DNA of 64,000 nucleotides, taken from assembly GCA_037043015.1 (NCBI GenBank), contig CM073322.1, forward strand, positions 21,914,364 to 21,978,363, in the 5' to 3' direction. Of the stretch, positions 137 through 55,403 are shown in pieces. Both the position numbers and the translations under genes were made by a program. Position 1 is the first letter of the stretch. Every line of letters begins with the position of its first letter. The DNA is from Bryum argenteum. Lineage: Eukaryota; Streptophyta; Bryopsida; Bryales; Bryaceae. The notes under the pieces are model-generated. The model worked only from the letters and a program-made list of their open reading frames with translations. It made no database searches and had not been told where the DNA came from.

Positions 137-892
137 GTTTTGGTATTGCTTCTTACTTTAGTATAATTTTGCTTCTAATCTTAGTTTAATATGGCTAGTG
201 TGATCTTCAAAATTGGTATCTTATCAAGTTTACTTCTAACAAACCAAGTTTGTATCAACTTTGAAATGATGCCAAAAGTTATTGGTAAATTATTTCGTTT
301 TGTAAAATTTTACTAACTTGTTTATTTTAAATACATTCAAATAGAATTGTTTGTAGTGAATAGTAATGTACAATTTTATATTGCATCTAAAATTTTAGAA
401 ATGTGAACCTCAATGCATATGAAGAGAAGTACAGTACCCTCCAACAAGTGTTGCAACACACTCTGTTTTTTCACTTAAAACATATCCCATGGCCTGTTTT
501 AGAATGGTGGTGTTAGCATGATAATCATCACATCTCCATGAGATTTTTTGCATCATGGAAGGTGTTCCAGTTACCTTCATACACCAAGCATTTTCTAAAT
601 ATAAAGAGGCATCCATTGCCATGTGTCTACCAAAATTGCCATCATGCTTAAAAATCTTGGAAAAGGGTACCCTTCTTAATGTGATCACTTCTTCTCTGGG
701 ATATCAGATTTTGAGTATGTTTGAGCTTGGGAGGGTCCAAAGATACACATACTTGTTTGTAAGTCATCTTGATGGTACACATTTCTTAGAAAAGTTGTGT
801 GCAACAAGTCCTGTTTGTCAAACATATCGTTTACGTGTTGTTGTTAGGACCTTTTTATCAAACTTTTTGTGGATGTAAGTGTTGTTTGAGGA
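137..892. other. AT-rich stretch without a recognised gene
   Basis: Open frames here are short (for example 555-878 +, and 410-688 on the other strand) and I recognise no domain in them. The stretch may be 5' flank of the Tc1-like element that follows, but I could not find its terminal inverted repeats. Confidence 0.3.
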
Positions 893-1923
893 TTGTGCAC
901 CATGACAAGGAGTTATGTATCAAATGATATACGACACATGATAGTTGGTATGCAGAAAGCTAGCATGTCGGTGAGTGAAATTGGAAACATTGTAGGAAGG
1001 CCAAAATCGACTATTTCAAGGATTCTCAAGCGATTTAGAATTAGTGGCTCTGTATTGCCAACAAGTAGATCCGGTAGGCCGAAAAACATGAGTGATCGAG
1101 ATAGGAGAAGGCTCCATAGAGATCTTAGTAGTAATCGTCGTGCTCCTCTTGCGGTGTGCGGCAATGTGACATCTTCCGTGGGCATGTCGACTTTACGTAA
1201 AGAGCTTCATGAGCTTGGTATTAACAGTTGCATTGCAGTGAAGAAACCATTCTTGAGTGACATACACAAGGCAAAGAGGTTGGCTTTTGCAAATGGGCAC
1301 TTGCATTGGACGATTGACAATTGGAGTAATGTGATTTGGACCGATGAGTCATCCTTTGAAGTTGGAAAACCATCACGCCAAATTCGTGTAATGCGCGAAA
1401 AGCATATGAACGCTACAACTACAATTGCTTAGCACCTACATTCAAATCCGGAAGGACTTCAATTATGGTATGGGGTGCTATCACTGGCTCTTCTAAGTCT
1501 TATTTGGTGTTAATTCCTCCTAATAGACGCACTGCCAAAGACTTTGTAGAGATAGTATCTCAAGGAGCATTAGAGCATTATTATTGGCACCATGACCACT
1601 CACGAGCACCTCATTTTAATGGAGGATGGTGCTCCAAAGACATGGTAGTAATATACAAAAAAGATTGGAGACAAAGAACTTGGATTGAAAAAGCTTGAAT
1701 GGCCACCAAATTCTCCCGACCCTAATCCTATAGAGAATGTCCGGAAGCAAGTTATAGATCAAGTGCAACAGAGAAATAGACCACGAAACAAAGACGAAAT
1801 GTGGACATCGATCAATCGGCTTGGGAGGATATACCTCAAGAAAGCATCAAGAAGTTGATTTCAACAATGCCAACCCGGATGAAAGTCGTAATAGCGGCTC
1901 AAGGTGGTAGCACTCAATGGTAG
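893..1923 (+). pseudogene. Broken Tc1/mariner-type transposase
   Basis: This was a cut-and-paste transposase of the Tc1 group. The first frame (893-1432) gives two helix-turn-helix regions: one around residues 20-55 (VSEIGNIVGRPKSTISRILK) and a second after the SGRPK linker. It then gives the first catalytic aspartate in WTDESSFE. Another frame carries MVWGAI and then MEDGAP (second aspartate, near 1619-1636). After that come WPPNSPDPNP and IENV with the acidic third residue, about 35 residues after the second aspartate, so DD(34-35)E-like. The reading frame is lost near 1400, there are two adjacent stops near 1645 and another frame change near 1810-1860, so it cannot make an enzyme. Terminal repeats were not found. 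The family is confident; the clade within Tc1 is not. Confidence 0.85.
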
Positions 1924-4035: not shown

Positions 4036-4375
4036 GGCACTAAAAGCCTTGGCTTGATGGTTAGGGTCCATGGTCCCCAGTGAGGAGGTTGTGGGTTATA
4101 CTCCCCATGCAGGCTTGGTGCTCACCACCCTAGTCCACACAACTATGGTGAGGGGTTCTTGGACCTCGTTGTATGAGTACCTCAAAGCCCTTTGGGGGAT
4201 ACCATGTTGGGTATCTTTAAGGCACTAGTGGCTAGGTAGAAATTAGCATAGTGTTCACCCCAACAGAGGTTCGTAGTCCCGCCATTTGTGTGATAACCAC
4301 TGGGCATTCATCCAAGGGTAGGTCGAACGAACACTTTATTCACGCCGGCCTCTAAATAGGTTGGAGTCTCTCTTC
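4036..4375 (+). repeat. tRNA-derived SINE, copy 1
   Basis: It begins GGCACTA-AAGCCTTGGC and shows a pol III A-box-like TGGCTTGATGG and, about 40 bp on, a B-box-like GGTTATACTCC. The body recurs at 19973-20318 and, 5'-truncated, at 27569-27810. Shared blocks include CCTCAAAGCCCTTTGGGGG, CACTAGTGGCTAGG and TTCACGCCGGCC, and the copies end in a T/C-rich tail (GGAGTCTCTCTTCTT). It is not coding. The tail abuts the TTAA at 4376-4379. Confidence 0.75.
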
Positions 4376-9938: not shown

Positions 9939-10010
9939 CAAGTCAAAGCAAAAGTAAAGTAAAAGCTATACAAGTGAAGGAGTATAAATATATAATACAA
10001 ATATACTAGT

Positions 10011-12194
10011 ATGCCACTCTTACAAAGTCTTCTTCACATCCTCATGTTAGTAGCGCCAGTGAAGATGTCCATGCGGGAGAAGAGGCCTAGGCCTCAGCAA
10101 TTCACAAACCAACAATTGAATCAAGCTGCTAGTAAACGGCCGCGCCATAATGCTAGGCCTCAACAATTCACAAACCAACAATTGAATCAAGTTGCTAGGA
10201 AACGGCCGCGCCGTAATGCTAGGCCTCAACAATTCACAAACCCACAATTGAATCAAGCTGCTAGTAAAAGGCCGCGCCATAATGCTAGGCCTCAACAATT
10301 CACAAACCAGCAATTGAATCAAACTCTTAGTACTACTAGACCTCAACAATTCACAAACGAACAATTCAATCGAGCTTTTAGTAATACTAGACCTCAACAA
10401 TTCACAAACCAGCAATTCAATCAAGCTCTTAGTAATACTAGGCCTCAACAATCTAGAAACCAACAGGTTGATCAACCTTATGGTAATCAACCTAATGGCA
10501 ATCAACCACACTATGATGCCGTGTCTTACACAGAACGTCAACCGGGTGTTCTATATCCTTCTGGTATACCGGGCGCTAATCCAAGTAGAACAGTACGCGC
10601 CATACCGAATGGTGTTGATCATGGCTCCTATAGCGTAGCCACAGTACTATCAGCATTTGCAACTCTAATAGCTCAAGGAGAAAGTGGAGGTTCTTTTATT
10701 CAAGTTTTACTTAACAACTTGTCGCTGGACATGCTCGCTGATATTGTGATTGCCAATATGGAGCATTTTCCTAGTTCCACAGACCCTCGACCCAACGAGC
10801 CCTCTTATGTCCAAGTAAAGCAGGAGCCAGTCGAAGTGGAAAGGAGAAACATCTCAAATCCTGTTGTTCCCTTGTTGCCGCTTTCGCAAGTAAAGCAGGA
10901 GCCAGTCGAAGTAGAAAGTATAAACATCTCTAATCGACTTGTAAAGCAGGAACCGGTCGAAGTAGAAAGTATGAGCATCTCTAATCGACTTGTAAAGCAG
11001 GAGCCAGTCGAAGTAGAAAGTGTAAACATCTCTAATCGACCTGTAAAGCAGGAGCCGGTCGAAGTAGAAAGTATGAACATCTCTAATCGACCTGTAAAGC
11101 AGGGACCGGTCAGAGCAGGAAATTTGACCATCTCCGATCGAGTTGTTCCTTCGTTGCCGCTTAGCAAACCAAGAGTGCAGCTTTCTGGGGATCAAAAAGC
11201 AGCATTGTATAAATACTCGCTAGTTCGGATACTGGAGAAGCACAAAACCATAACTGCGGCTGGTGGAGGAGAGCTTCGAAGTGCCTTGTTGGCTCGATTG
11301 GCTGCTGAGATTACCGAGTTTTTGAAGGTTCTAGAAAAGCATATTTTTGCAGACTACGAAGCTCACAAGGGTCACGAGTTGGGGTTACACGTACTTTATC
11401 AACTATACGCGGATCAGCCAAGCATCTACGATCAGTTTCTGCTCTCGCTGGTACAAGGTTTGCAAGAGAAAAGCAAATCTCTCAGCCGGCTCTTGTGTGA
11501 AGCTCCTGAGGTTTCAACGACCGCTTTGAAGTTTGTTCAAGAGCTTTGTATTGCAGACTCACCGGAGCATATTACAACAGGTCTTAGTGCCTTGTGGTAT
11601 ATGATCCTGCAACGACCACCCTTACGAGACGCTTGCTTACAATTTGTTCTTACGTGCACGGTTCAGAAGTCGGAGAATACTCGAGGGAAAGCAGTTCGGT
11701 TGTTGGCCAATAAGCTATACCCGCTCCATTATGCGGCGCAAAGAATTGAAGATTTTGCGATTGAGAGCTTTTATTCGGTGGTCAATAATCAATCGGAGAG
11801 GGAAGAAAGCCATGAAAGACCCGAAGTAACAAATGGAGATGTTGTAGCTCCGATTGTTGATGAGGCTAGAACTACGAAAAGCACCGAAGCTGCAATTGAT
11901 GCTAAGGCTGGAACTGCAAAAAGCACCGAGGCTTTGTCATTACCAGAAGCTCAACAGTCTATGGCACTGTTTTTCGCCCTGTGTACTAAGAAACATGCGA
12001 TATTTCGACAGTTATTTCAGGTTTACGGAAAAGCTCCGGAAGCAGTGAAGCAAGTTATTGACGAACATATTCCCATCTTAGTCCGAACCGTTGGTTCATC
12101 TCAAGAGCTTCTCCAGCTGATTGCCGATCCCCCTTCTGGTAGCAACAATCTAGTGAAGCAGGTACAGATGGTACTGAGCACTCTAAGGGAATGA
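10011..12194 (+). CDS. Isolated symplekin/Pta1 middle region with two amplified repeat arrays (727 aa)
   Basis: Symplekin is the scaffold of the nuclear mRNA cleavage/polyadenylation machinery. Residues about 215-260 (LIAQGESGG, then LSLDMLADIVIANMEHFPSS) and about 400-727 (LARLAAE, HELGLHVLYQLYA, LCEAPEVSTTALKFVQELC, VRLLANKLYP, SLPEAQQSMALFFALCTKKH) match the central part of plant symplekin. The N-terminal HEAT region and the C-terminal domain are missing. Residues 27 to about 160 are seven 17-22-residue repeats built on RPQQFTNQQLNQ, with KRPR basic clusters. From 10815 to 11144 there are six copies of VKQ(E/G)P-VEVES-ISNR, five of them spaced exactly 51 bp. Just past the stop, another frame continues PIVKKLYK and meets GTAACT, a possible former splice donor. 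So this is probably a duplicated giant exon that lost one base, rather than a spliced retrocopy. It may be an expressed chimera or a young pseudogene. Confidence 0.75.
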   Translation: MPLLQSLLHILMLVAPVKMSMREKRPRPQQFTNQQLNQAASKRPRHNARPQQFTNQQLNQVARKRPRRNARPQQFTNPQLNQAASKRPRHNARPQQFTNQQLNQTLSTTRPQQFTNEQFNRAFSNTRPQQFTNQQFNQALSNTRPQQSRNQQVDQPYGNQPNGNQPHYDAVSYTERQPGVLYPSGIPGANPSRTVRAIPNGVDHGSYSVATVLSAFATLIAQGESGGSFIQVLLNNLSLDMLADIVIANMEHFPSSTDPRPNEPSYVQVKQEPVEVERRNISNPVVPLLPLSQVKQEPVEVESINISNRLVKQEPVEVESMSISNRLVKQEPVEVESVNISNRPVKQEPVEVESMNISNRPVKQGPVRAGNLTISDRVVPSLPLSKPRVQLSGDQKAALYKYSLVRILEKHKTITAAGGGELRSALLARLAAEITEFLKVLEKHIFADYEAHKGHELGLHVLYQLYADQPSIYDQFLLSLVQGLQEKSKSLSRLLCEAPEVSTTALKFVQELCIADSPEHITTGLSALWYMILQRPPLRDACLQFVLTCTVQKSENTRGKAVRLLANKLYPLHYAAQRIEDFAIESFYSVVNNQSEREESHERPEVTNGDVVAPIVDEARTTKSTEAAIDAKAGTAKSTEALSLPEAQQSMALFFALCTKKHAIFRQLFQVYGKAPEAVKQVIDEHIPILVRTVGSSQELLQLIADPPSGSNNLVKQVQMVLSTLRE
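10089..10490 (+). repeat. Coding tandem repeat array, 66/51-bp units
   Basis: Seven in-frame units start at 10089, 10155, 10221, 10287, 10338, 10389 and 10440. The first three are 66 bp and carry a KRPR(H/R)NA tail; the later ones are 51 bp and replace it with LSNT-like residues. The high similarity points to recent expansion by slippage or unequal exchange. Confidence 0.9.
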
Positions 12195-46874: not shown

Positions 46875-48184
46875 TTAGTAACCAATAGGAACGCAGCACT
46901 TCTTCACGCTGTCGTACTTGCTTCCCGCCTTGCACTGCTCCCCGCACTTTCCGGCACTGCCATTCACATCCCGTTTTGTCAGTCCTCAGCAAGTTGAAAA
47001 GTCGCATACAATGGATCGCATATCAGGAGTGGGCCAGTAAATCCTCTTGAATCGACCTTCAACTTGAAAACATGCCTACGGATACTGCATATATGCATGC
47101 TTTCAAGCAGTGCTTTCTGAGCTATGCGCAGGATTAGTGGTTACCTGCAGGTGGGCTCGCCGCCCTTCAGGGTGCATGGGCACTTGTTGCCGCACTTGCC
47201 ACAGTTGTACACATCCTTCGTCAAGTCCTTCTCGCATCCGTTGCTCCAGATGTTGTTGTCGCAGTTGCCATAACCGGGCTTGCACACGGGCTCGCAGCAC
47301 TTACCGTTCAGGCACTTGGTCTCCGCGTTCGCCACCTGCTTGCAGCACAACCCGCACTTGCCACAGTTCTTGGGGTCATTCTTGGTGTTGGTCTCGCATC
47401 CGTTGCTCCAGATGTTGTTGTCGCAGTTGGCATATCCGTGCTTGCACACGGGCTCGCAGCACTTGCCATTCTGGCACTTGGTGTCGGCGTTGGCTACCTG
47501 CTTGCAGCAGTTGCCACACTTGCCGCAGTTCTTGGGGTCCTTGCCGGTATCGGTCTCGCAGCCGTTCTTCCAGAGGTCGTTGTCGCAGTTACCCCAGCCG
47601 GCCGTGCAGGTGTACTTGCAGTGTCCGCCGACGCACGCGGTGACGGCATAGGGGAGAGTCTTGCACTTCTTGTGGCAGTCACCGCAGTTGTTAGGATCCT
47701 TGGAAATGCACGTCTCACAGCCGGGCTTGTATGGATCGCAGTCCTTGAATCCCGATGGGCACCTGTTCCACGCCTCAGCTCCACCTGCTCAATAACAGAG
47801 TACGGTAAGTGCGTAGAATGCGAGGGTGAATGCAGCCAATATGCTGGTAGCATGTTGTCTAATTCCACTACAGCACAAAGAACAGGAGGTGCAACTCAGT
47901 ACGTCAATTCTTGAAATTAGCTGAAACGGCATTCATTGCTGTTAGTTGATCAACTGACATGAACACTCACTTTTTTCTATAGCATGTGGATCTGGGATAA
48001 ATAACACGCAACTAATACAGAGAGACAGATGATACTCCAACTTGAAGCATTCGGTACATGTGTTGAGGAACTAAACTGAATCCGAGGTCAGTGAACAGAG
48101 GTCAGGAGATGATGAAACGTTACCAATGAGGAGCAGCATCATGGATGCTGCCACGAGCAGGGTTGCATGTTGCGAGGTCGCCAT
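46875..48184 (-). CDS. Secreted cysteine-rich repeat protein A, 260 aa, 3 exons
   Basis: Exons on the minus strand are 48124-48184, 47145-47784 and 46875-46956; 783 bp, phases agree. Residues 1-23 (MATSQHATLLVAASMMLLLI) form a signal peptide. The mature part is a run of about 48-residue cysteine units: GWGNCDNDLWKNGCETD, CGKCGNCCKQVANADTKC, GYANCDNNIWSNGCETN, CGKCGLCC, GYGNCDNNIWSNGCEKD, CGKCGNKC. The NCG-x-CG-x2-C core recalls plant STIG1-like secreted proteins, and the NGCE...CGxCG repeat recalls cysteine-repeat proteins of myxobacteria. Neither assignment was tested. Likely extracellular and disulfide-rich. Its exons are nearly identical to the inverted copy at 54172-55403, while introns differ. 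Confidence 0.85.
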
Positions 48185-54171: not shown

Positions 54172-55403
54172 ATGGCGAACTCTGCACTGCTCGTGGCCGT
54201 CACCCTGGCGGTGATCTTCATTGGTACATCTATCTTACTCTCTTGCATGGTCGGTTTGTAGTCCTGAACTGTATACCAAGTCGGTCCGTACCTTGTAGCT
54301 TGGTTTATACATGTGCGTCTGTATGTATGTCTCAGGACAGATGTCAGTGTTTCGATGTATGGGCTTTTCGGTGAATGAGTTGATTTGACACCTGTACATC
54401 TTCGGAACTGATTCGGACTGTCTATGCCCACTAAAGAGACCTGCTTAACTTACTGAATGTTGTCATTTATGCTAAATTAGTTCAATTGTCATTTGAGCAC
54501 AGGAAGCGCTGAGGCGTGGAACAGGTGCCCATCGGGATTCAAGGACTGCGATCCATACAAGCCCGGCTGTGAGACGTGCATTTCAAGGATCCTAACAACT
54601 GCGGTGACTGCCACAAGAAGTGCAAGACTCTCCCATATGCCGTCACCGCGTGCGTCGGCGGACAATGCAAGTACACCTGCACGGCCGGCTGGGGTAACTG
54701 CGACAACGACCTCTGGAAGAACGGCTGCGAGACCGATACCGGCAAGGACCCCAAGAACTGCGGCAAGTGTGGCAACTGCTGCAAGCAGGTAGCCAACGCC
54801 GACACCAAGTGCCAGAATGGCAAGTGCTGTGAGCCCGTGTGCAAGCACGGATATGCCAACTGCGACAACAACATCTGGAGCAACGGATGCGAGACCAACA
54901 CCAAGAATGACCCCAAGAACTGTGGCAAGTGCGGGTTGTGTTGCAAGCAGGTGGCGAACGCGGAGACCAAGTGCCTGAACGGTAAGTGCTGCGAGCCCGT
55001 GTGCAAGCCCGGTTATGGCAACTGCGACAACAACATCTGGAGCAACGGATGCGAGAAGGACTTGACGAAGGATGTGTACAACTGTGGCAAGTGCGGCAAC
55101 AAGTGCCCTTGCACCCTGAAGGGCGGCGAGCCCACCTGCAGGTAATCATTGAGTCGCTGAGATCATCTTCATACATGTCTGCAGCATCTATTGAAGACTT
55201 TCTCCGTAGAAATCTACTCAGGGCTACGCACGATAATCTATCAGTTCACTCGTGATTTGTGTCCAAGTGTGCTTGACATATCATCGTGCTGAGGATTGAC
55301 AATATGGGATGTGGATGGCAGTGCCGGAAAGTGCGGGGAGCAGTGCAAGGCGGGAAGCAAGTACGACAGCGTGAAGAAGTGTTGCGTTCCCATTGGTTAC
55401 TAA
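54172..55403 (+). pseudogene. Secreted cysteine-rich repeat protein B (frameshifted copy of gene A)
   Basis: Exon positions match gene A: 54172-54223, 54503-55141 and 55322-55403. Exon 1 encodes a different signal peptide (MANSALLVAVTLAVIFI). Exon 2 is 639 bp, one base shorter than in gene A. The missing C lies in the run after GAGACGTGCATTT (near 54588) and shifts the frame after CETCIS, so the spliced transcript would not encode the cysteine repeats from the first ATG. The second frame from 54576 is still open with all repeats intact. Apart from this base, exon 2 shows only about five or six differences from gene A. Either a very young pseudogene, a gene using another start, or a sequencing error in a C run. 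Confidence 0.75.

Follow-up and report, generated by a model that had tools for sequence, protein, structure and literature searches.

The window analysed here, a stretch of 64,000 nucleotides from Bryum argenteum, carries on its forward strand the intronless frame of a partial-symplekin retrogene (positions 10011 to 12194), referred to below as the C2 copy to distinguish it from related sequences on C1 and C4. The genome contains five matches to SAM_LFY (best E 1.1e-28), a domain characteristic of land plants and related algae. The sequence-only reading had described a frame of 727 codons at this position, and this is indeed open from the ATG at 10011 to the TGA at 12192-12194, with the stop-free stretch beginning at 9996. 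The ATG at position 10044 appears to be the likelier start codon, as it is conserved in the C4 copy, where the ATG at 10011 is not, and as a TATA box is situated at 9983. By the usual rule of thumb, transcription from a box at this position starts at approximately 10013. Downstream, and all on the forward strand, the frame encodes a Q/N-rich first coding array (10089-10490), a conserved middle segment of symplekin (10601-10790; SAFATLIAQGESG ... DIVIANMEHFPSS) which aligns to both the C4 copy (blastn, 77 %) and an intron-bearing gene on C1, an array of six VKQEP-type units (10815-11144), and a part which, by homology, is expected to be folded and corresponds to the first portion of the C-terminal HEAT region of symplekin (11181-12191). 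The assignment of the latter is based on its match to the human symplekin sequence and on its constrained codons, and it does not include the Symplekin_C part. It incorporates the longest run of residues identical in the C2 copy, the C4 copy and the C1 gene (GHELGLHVLYQLYAD, 15 residues; 11370-11414), the codons of which show only synonymous differences among the three, and a run of this length was reached in 3 of 5000 column shuffles. AlphaFold2 prediction from the single sequence of 11163-12191 yielded a poor model (mean pLDDT 47).

The proposed derivation of this frame from symplekin is borne out by a phmmer match to the human symplekin chain 6v4x_J (E 1.4e-15), as well as by its alignment to the C1 gene. 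The matched stretches comprise chain residues 371-729 and a second stretch (757-829) which is weaker when taken alone (i-Evalue 0.5). A Pfam scan of the C2 protein recovered no families at E-values up to 1. The protein lacks both the N-terminal SYMPK_PTA1_N domain (PF11935), for which the single match in the genome is located on C1, and the Symplekin_C domain (PF12295), the two genomic matches of which both fall at C1:12287509-12288380. All N-terminal and C-terminal symplekin Pfam matches of the genome are located in the intron-bearing gene at C1 12.28-12.29 Mb, so that the symplekin gene sought elsewhere in the genome was found, and its fragment matching the C2 protein contains one psi-K-x-E motif, VKEE. 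Eleven exon segments could be assembled for the homologous part of this gene, with ten introns between them, all of the GT-AG type. The C2 protein runs without a gap across seven of the ten corresponding junctions and with a three-residue gap across one, with the remaining two falling in the linker or array, where the alignment is not trustworthy and the absence of an intron cannot be judged. The absence of introns at the seven junctions aligned without a gap strongly supports the view that the C2 frame arose as a processed retrocopy of a symplekin segment. Synonymous divergence from the C1 gene amounts to 0.52-0.62, and a poly(A) tract and target-site duplications are thus unlikely to have survived. 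A second C1 sequence, at 15.38 Mb, was also weighed as a possible source and rejected, since it is incomplete and at least one of its exons contains stops. In this partial copy (L011; C1:15376000-15385900) the gap between the exons of one pair is wider than in the gene at C1:12.28 Mb.

A second intronless copy is present on C4. It comprises 461 codons, is 65-66 % identical to the C2 copy and incorporates neither the VKQEP array nor the array at 10089-10490. The two copies have matching start and end points, and both appear by eye to lack most of the long C1 stretch between the LPST segment and VKEE. They further have in common an upstream block of 40-43 bases (window 9950-9989, forward strand; 4203-4245 of the C4 locus, L009), which is probably a core promoter and has the TATA box TATAAAT (9983-9989) at its 3' end. 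The local alignment score of this block (47) was reached by none of 500 dinucleotide shuffles (maximum 33). A pattern made from its first 26-27 bases matches exactly two sites in the 258.8 Mb genome, upstream of the C2 and C4 retrogenes respectively, with no matches to the reversed-pattern control. The downstream flanks of the two copies show no similarity beyond that of shuffled sequence (score 26, against a shuffled maximum of 29). The simplest history is one retroposition, followed by the gain of a promoter and then by duplication at the DNA level, with the promoter gain and the order of these events deduced from the upstream block common to both copies. Repeated stretches (AAACTCACCGCCATTTCAAACTCAATGTACA and similar) were observed by eye just upstream of the block on C4 (L009 3900-4200).

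The substitution pattern was determined on the 372 codons aligned in the C1, C2 and C4 sequences, in trimmed blocks outside the arrays and linker, where the three-way alignment is unreliable. The branch dN/dS was 0.29 for the C2 copy (95 % bootstrap 0.19-0.42) and 0.39 for the C4 copy (0.25-0.67), and for neither copy did any of the 1000 bootstraps reach 1. The remaining branch, in which the C1 gene is combined with the stem common to the two retrogenes, has a dN/dS of 0.56 (0.36-0.96), with 1.9 % of bootstraps reaching 1 or more, and the pairwise pN/pS values are 0.43, 0.50 and 0.55. The comparison of synonymous and non-synonymous change which the sequence-only reading had called for has therefore returned a pattern that is not neutral for the folded part. 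Under neutral substitution at 0.1, 0.2, 0.29 and 0.37 changes per site, the 727-codon frame stayed open in 0 of 2000 trials at each divergence, the 343-codon core of the C2 copy in 45, 3, 1 and 0 of 2000, and the C4 frame in 40, 1, 0 and 0 of 2000. The trimmed alignment contains eleven gaps between the C2 and C4 copies and twelve between the C2 copy and the C1 gene, including a few at trimmed ends. Judged by dN/dS and frame survival, both copies are protein-coding retrogenes which have been kept by purifying selection, and not decaying pseudogenes.

Between the middle segment and the HEAT portion, five exact VKQEP motifs (10815-10829, 10890-10904, 10941-10955, 10992-11006 and 11043-11057) and one VKQGP motif (11094-11108) are encoded, in agreement with the count made previously, with start-to-start spacings of 75, 51, 51, 51 and 51 bp. 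The first unit measures 75 bp (10815-10889; VKQEPVEVERRNISNPVVPLLPLSQ) and is followed by units 2 (10890-10940; VKQEPVEVESINISNRL), 3 (10941-10991; VKQEPVEVESMSISNRL), 4 (10992-11042; VKQEPVEVESVNISNRP) and 5 (11043-11093; VKQEPVEVESMNISNRP), and by a diverged sixth unit in which the consensus glutamate is gone (11094-11144; VKQGPVRAGNLTISDRV). Tandem Repeats Finder (TRF) reports a period of 51 with 4.4 copies over 10890-11111, and the score of 367 and 91 % matches place this array far beyond chance. It lies in a linker and constitutes a coding minisatellite. The SUMO consensus psi-K-x-E occurs in the C2 protein as five VKQE, and all five of its psi-K-x-E/D motifs, as well as five of its six K-x-E/D triplets, lie within the array. 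As the units are tandem duplicates, the six motifs represent one motif multiplied rather than six independent coincidences, and their number does not by itself speak for selection on the motif. An origin of the array as dispersed repeat or transposon sequence was rejected on the basis of a genome search, which found the array itself and one weak match (E 0.005, 30 % identity) in a serine-rich frame on C8. This frame, of 357 residues, contains KSEP-type repeats and no symplekin sequence discernible by eye. It lies around C8:17285682-17285954 on the reverse strand (L019), and its repeats are VEKSEPTAVEGSSIAAP-like.

The suggestion that repeat expansion multiplied a SUMO site agrees with the distribution of psi-K-x-E/D motifs, of which the 692-residue C1 fragment contains one (VKEE), the C4 copy none and the C2 copy five. 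The C1 gene reads PSYAYVKEETMQEPVELESIDINDP, the C4 copy RSVEPVNVESIKISDR and unit 1 of the C2 copy PSYVQVKQEPVEVERRNISN. The sequence VVP(L/S)LPLS is found after unit 1 and again after unit 6. It resembles PVISLLPLS in the C1 gene, which suggests that duplication of a longer unit came first and multiplication of the 51-bp unit inside it afterwards. Codon 5 is common to units 2 and 4 and to units 3 and 5, codon 11 is common to units 3 and 5, and TRF also gives a period of 102 bp for the array, together pointing to a probable later duplication of a unit pair; the grouping at codon 17 is instead of unit 2 with 3 and of unit 4 with 5. Among units 1-5, all three variable codons of VKQEPVEVE differ synonymously, as opposed to one of the six in the remaining eight codons, the tail, where the other five are non-synonymous (Fisher p 0.048). 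When only units 2-5 are compared, the synonymous and non-synonymous counts are 2 and 0 in the core versus 0 and 3 in the tail; adding unit 6 changes the core to one synonymous and four non-synonymous variable codons. The pattern gives a hint that selection has favoured the motif in five of the units, but with three synonymous codons the numbers are too small for proof.

A further array, which the sequence-only reading did not mention, is encoded in the same frame as the VKQEP units, nearer the N-terminus (10089-10490). It comprises seven units beginning with RPQQ, the first at residue 27, with three units of 66 bp followed by units of 51 bp. The 66-bp units carry basic clusters (KRPRH/RKRPRR), which we take to resemble nuclear localisation signals. 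The sequence KRPRHNA is inherited, occurring once in the C4 copy, with KRSCHDA as its counterpart in the C1 gene, and a protein search of the genome with this array recovered only the array itself. That a second array arose in another linker favours a mutational origin for both, and indicates that the retrogene readily gains coding repeats in its linkers.

The premise that symplekin is a SUMO substrate is supported by a review stating that it is modified by SUMO2/3 (PMC9998694). Symplekin is also listed among the 20 strongest SUMO conjugates of Drosophila cells, which additionally overexpressed the E2 enzyme (PMC5241687). In a phmmer alignment with the C1 fragment, the VKEE region aligned to human symplekin without matching any human lysine, and homology between the plant VKEE and a modified human lysine is thus not established at the level of the alignment. 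A human SUMO site is presumably K483, and the modification of symplekin by SUMO was reportedly the subject of Vethantham 2007. A literature search recovered no paper joining symplekin, SUMO and K483, and the accessible portions of the literature searched contained no description of a symplekin retrogene or of a SUMO-site array in symplekin. The VKQEP copies also resemble SUMO synergy-control motifs, which are defined as P-x(0-4)-[I/V]KxE-x(0-3)-P. By eye, units 1, 2 and 5 fit this pattern, with a proline no more than four residues upstream, whereas units 3 and 4 have no upstream proline. The C2 protein is, however, not a transcription factor, and the likeness is one of sequence.

What the folded part may do can be gauged from Encephalitozoon cuniculi, where residues 160-385 of the C-terminal HEAT region of symplekin (160-591) suffice for binding to CTD3 of CPSF73, and a comparable arrangement is seen in models for further species, A. 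thaliana among them (PMC10688271). The N-terminal domain of symplekin has a human counterpart which was solved with Ssu72 (PMC10688271). By homology to another species, the folded part of the C2 protein would be the counterpart of the CPSF73 CTD3-binding portion of symplekin. Our main reading is that the middle of symplekin was copied from an mRNA into the genome of an ancestral plant, that this copy probably gained a TATA promoter and was later duplicated at the DNA level, giving the C2 and C4 loci, and that both loci have been retained by purifying selection on the kept part of the C-terminal HEAT region. Lacking the N-terminal domain and Symplekin_C, the C2 protein would sit on or compete for CPSF73, and as a partial symplekin may redirect or restrain the core cleavage module. 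Only in the C2 copy has the linker before the HEAT portion expanded as a 51-bp coding minisatellite, turning an inherited VK(x)E into five exact psi-K-x-E sites with acidic residues after them. These sites could together accept SUMO at several positions and so tune the role of the protein at CPSF73. The origin and constraint in this scheme are well supported. We infer the SUMOylation of the array and the decoy role from sequence features, the former from the motif together with the reports of SUMO modification of symplekin in other organisms. The combination of a partial symplekin engaging CPSF73 with an array acting as multi-site SUMO acceptor is accordingly a tentative one, with a probability of about 0.42.

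Between a SUMO acceptor and a neutral minisatellite within a real gene, the odds are nearly even. In the latter explanation the retrogene is functional and the copies of the SUMO consensus do no work, having arisen through slippage during replication, or through unequal exchange, in a linker which tolerates such changes and in which the inherited VKxE was included by chance. It has only a little less than an even chance of being correct. The second array, of different sequence and in another linker (10089-10490), accords with this explanation in that the gene gains repeats readily. The C4 copy is constrained yet has neither array, so that the VKQEP array is not needed for the function of the family. 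The units, being 91 % alike, look recently expanded, the glutamate of unit 6 has been lost, and the agreement of units 2 with 4 and 3 with 5, together with the 102-bp period, fits the duplication of a pair, codon 17 being the exception. The distribution of variable codons argues in the opposite direction, with 0 of 3 changing the residue in VKQEPVEVE versus 5 of 6 in the tail (units 1-5), and the probability of three synonymous codons out of three under neutrality is 0.009-0.02, a value derived from very few events.

An improbable alternative is that the repeats were selected for a use other than SUMO attachment, as a flexible, acidic, multivalent linker which drives binding or condensation together with the Q/N-rich N-terminal array and its basic clusters. 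Both arrays are located in linkers before conserved symplekin segments, and the N-terminal one is Q/N-rich with KRPR clusters, as such a linker might be; the retention of the lysine and of the glutamate at +2 beside other acidic residues in five units argues against it. The remaining alternative of a processed pseudogene with a frame open by chance, to which the truncation of both ends relative to symplekin would lend itself, was rejected on dN/dS (0.29 for C2, with 0/1000 bootstraps at or above 1) and on neutral survival of the full frame (0/2000), and is largely refuted, the frame having remained open despite 11 gaps relative to the C4 copy and 12 relative to the C1 gene, and the upstream TATA block being common to both copies.

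Several known systems resemble the partial symplekin with its array of candidate SUMO sites, each in part. Symplekin/Pta1, the scaffold of the core cleavage complex, shares with the C2 protein the homologous middle segment and the first C-terminal HEAT portion, and differs in that the C2 copy has no introns, SYMPK_PTA1_N or Symplekin_C and has two added arrays. In plants, partial polyadenylation factors are produced by RNA processing for CPSF30, FIPS, CstF77, symplekin and CFIm25, and by separate genes in the case of ESP1 and the PCFS variants, and have been proposed to redirect a subcomplex (PMC3538716). The C2 protein is similar to these partial isoforms in retaining only a subset of the modules of a polyadenylation factor. 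Unlike products of alternative processing, or of a split gene, of which the second Arabidopsis symplekin is an example, C2 and C4 form a retrogene pair with an upstream block of its own. Yeast Syc1 is likewise a truncated paralogue with one face of the contact between CPSF73 and symplekin, and represents a mirror image, resembling the C-terminus of CPSF73/Ysh1 and modelled on Pta1 (PMC10688271). The C2 protein is a symplekin fragment which would bind CPSF73, and is not homologous to Syc1. That a dedicated plant retrogene family produces a CPSF73-docking symplekin fragment, with one member converted to a multi-site SUMO acceptor and functioning as a decoy scaffold tuned by SUMO dose, is the most far-reaching form of our main reading and seems rather unlikely. 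If true, the copy number of a minisatellite would set the strength of a decoy scaffold in SUMO-tuned 3'-end processing. A constrained retrogene pair which keeps one binding portion of symplekin further provides a natural, testable case of partial factors, and the C4 copy (no array) and the C2 copy (five sites) offer a ready comparison for the effect of multiplied SUMO consensus sites on the same domain.

Other features were also observed in the window. A frame at 890-1432 (forward strand) resembles by eye part of what we take to be a Tc1/mariner-type transposase. Two frames with cysteine-rich repeats (CDNNIWSNGCET / NCGKCG; 162-bp period) are located at 47141-47788 on the reverse strand and at 54573-55145 on the forward strand. 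By eye, the stretch they share is nearly identical, in opposite orientation and approximately 7 kb apart, and the two frames look like an inverted duplication.
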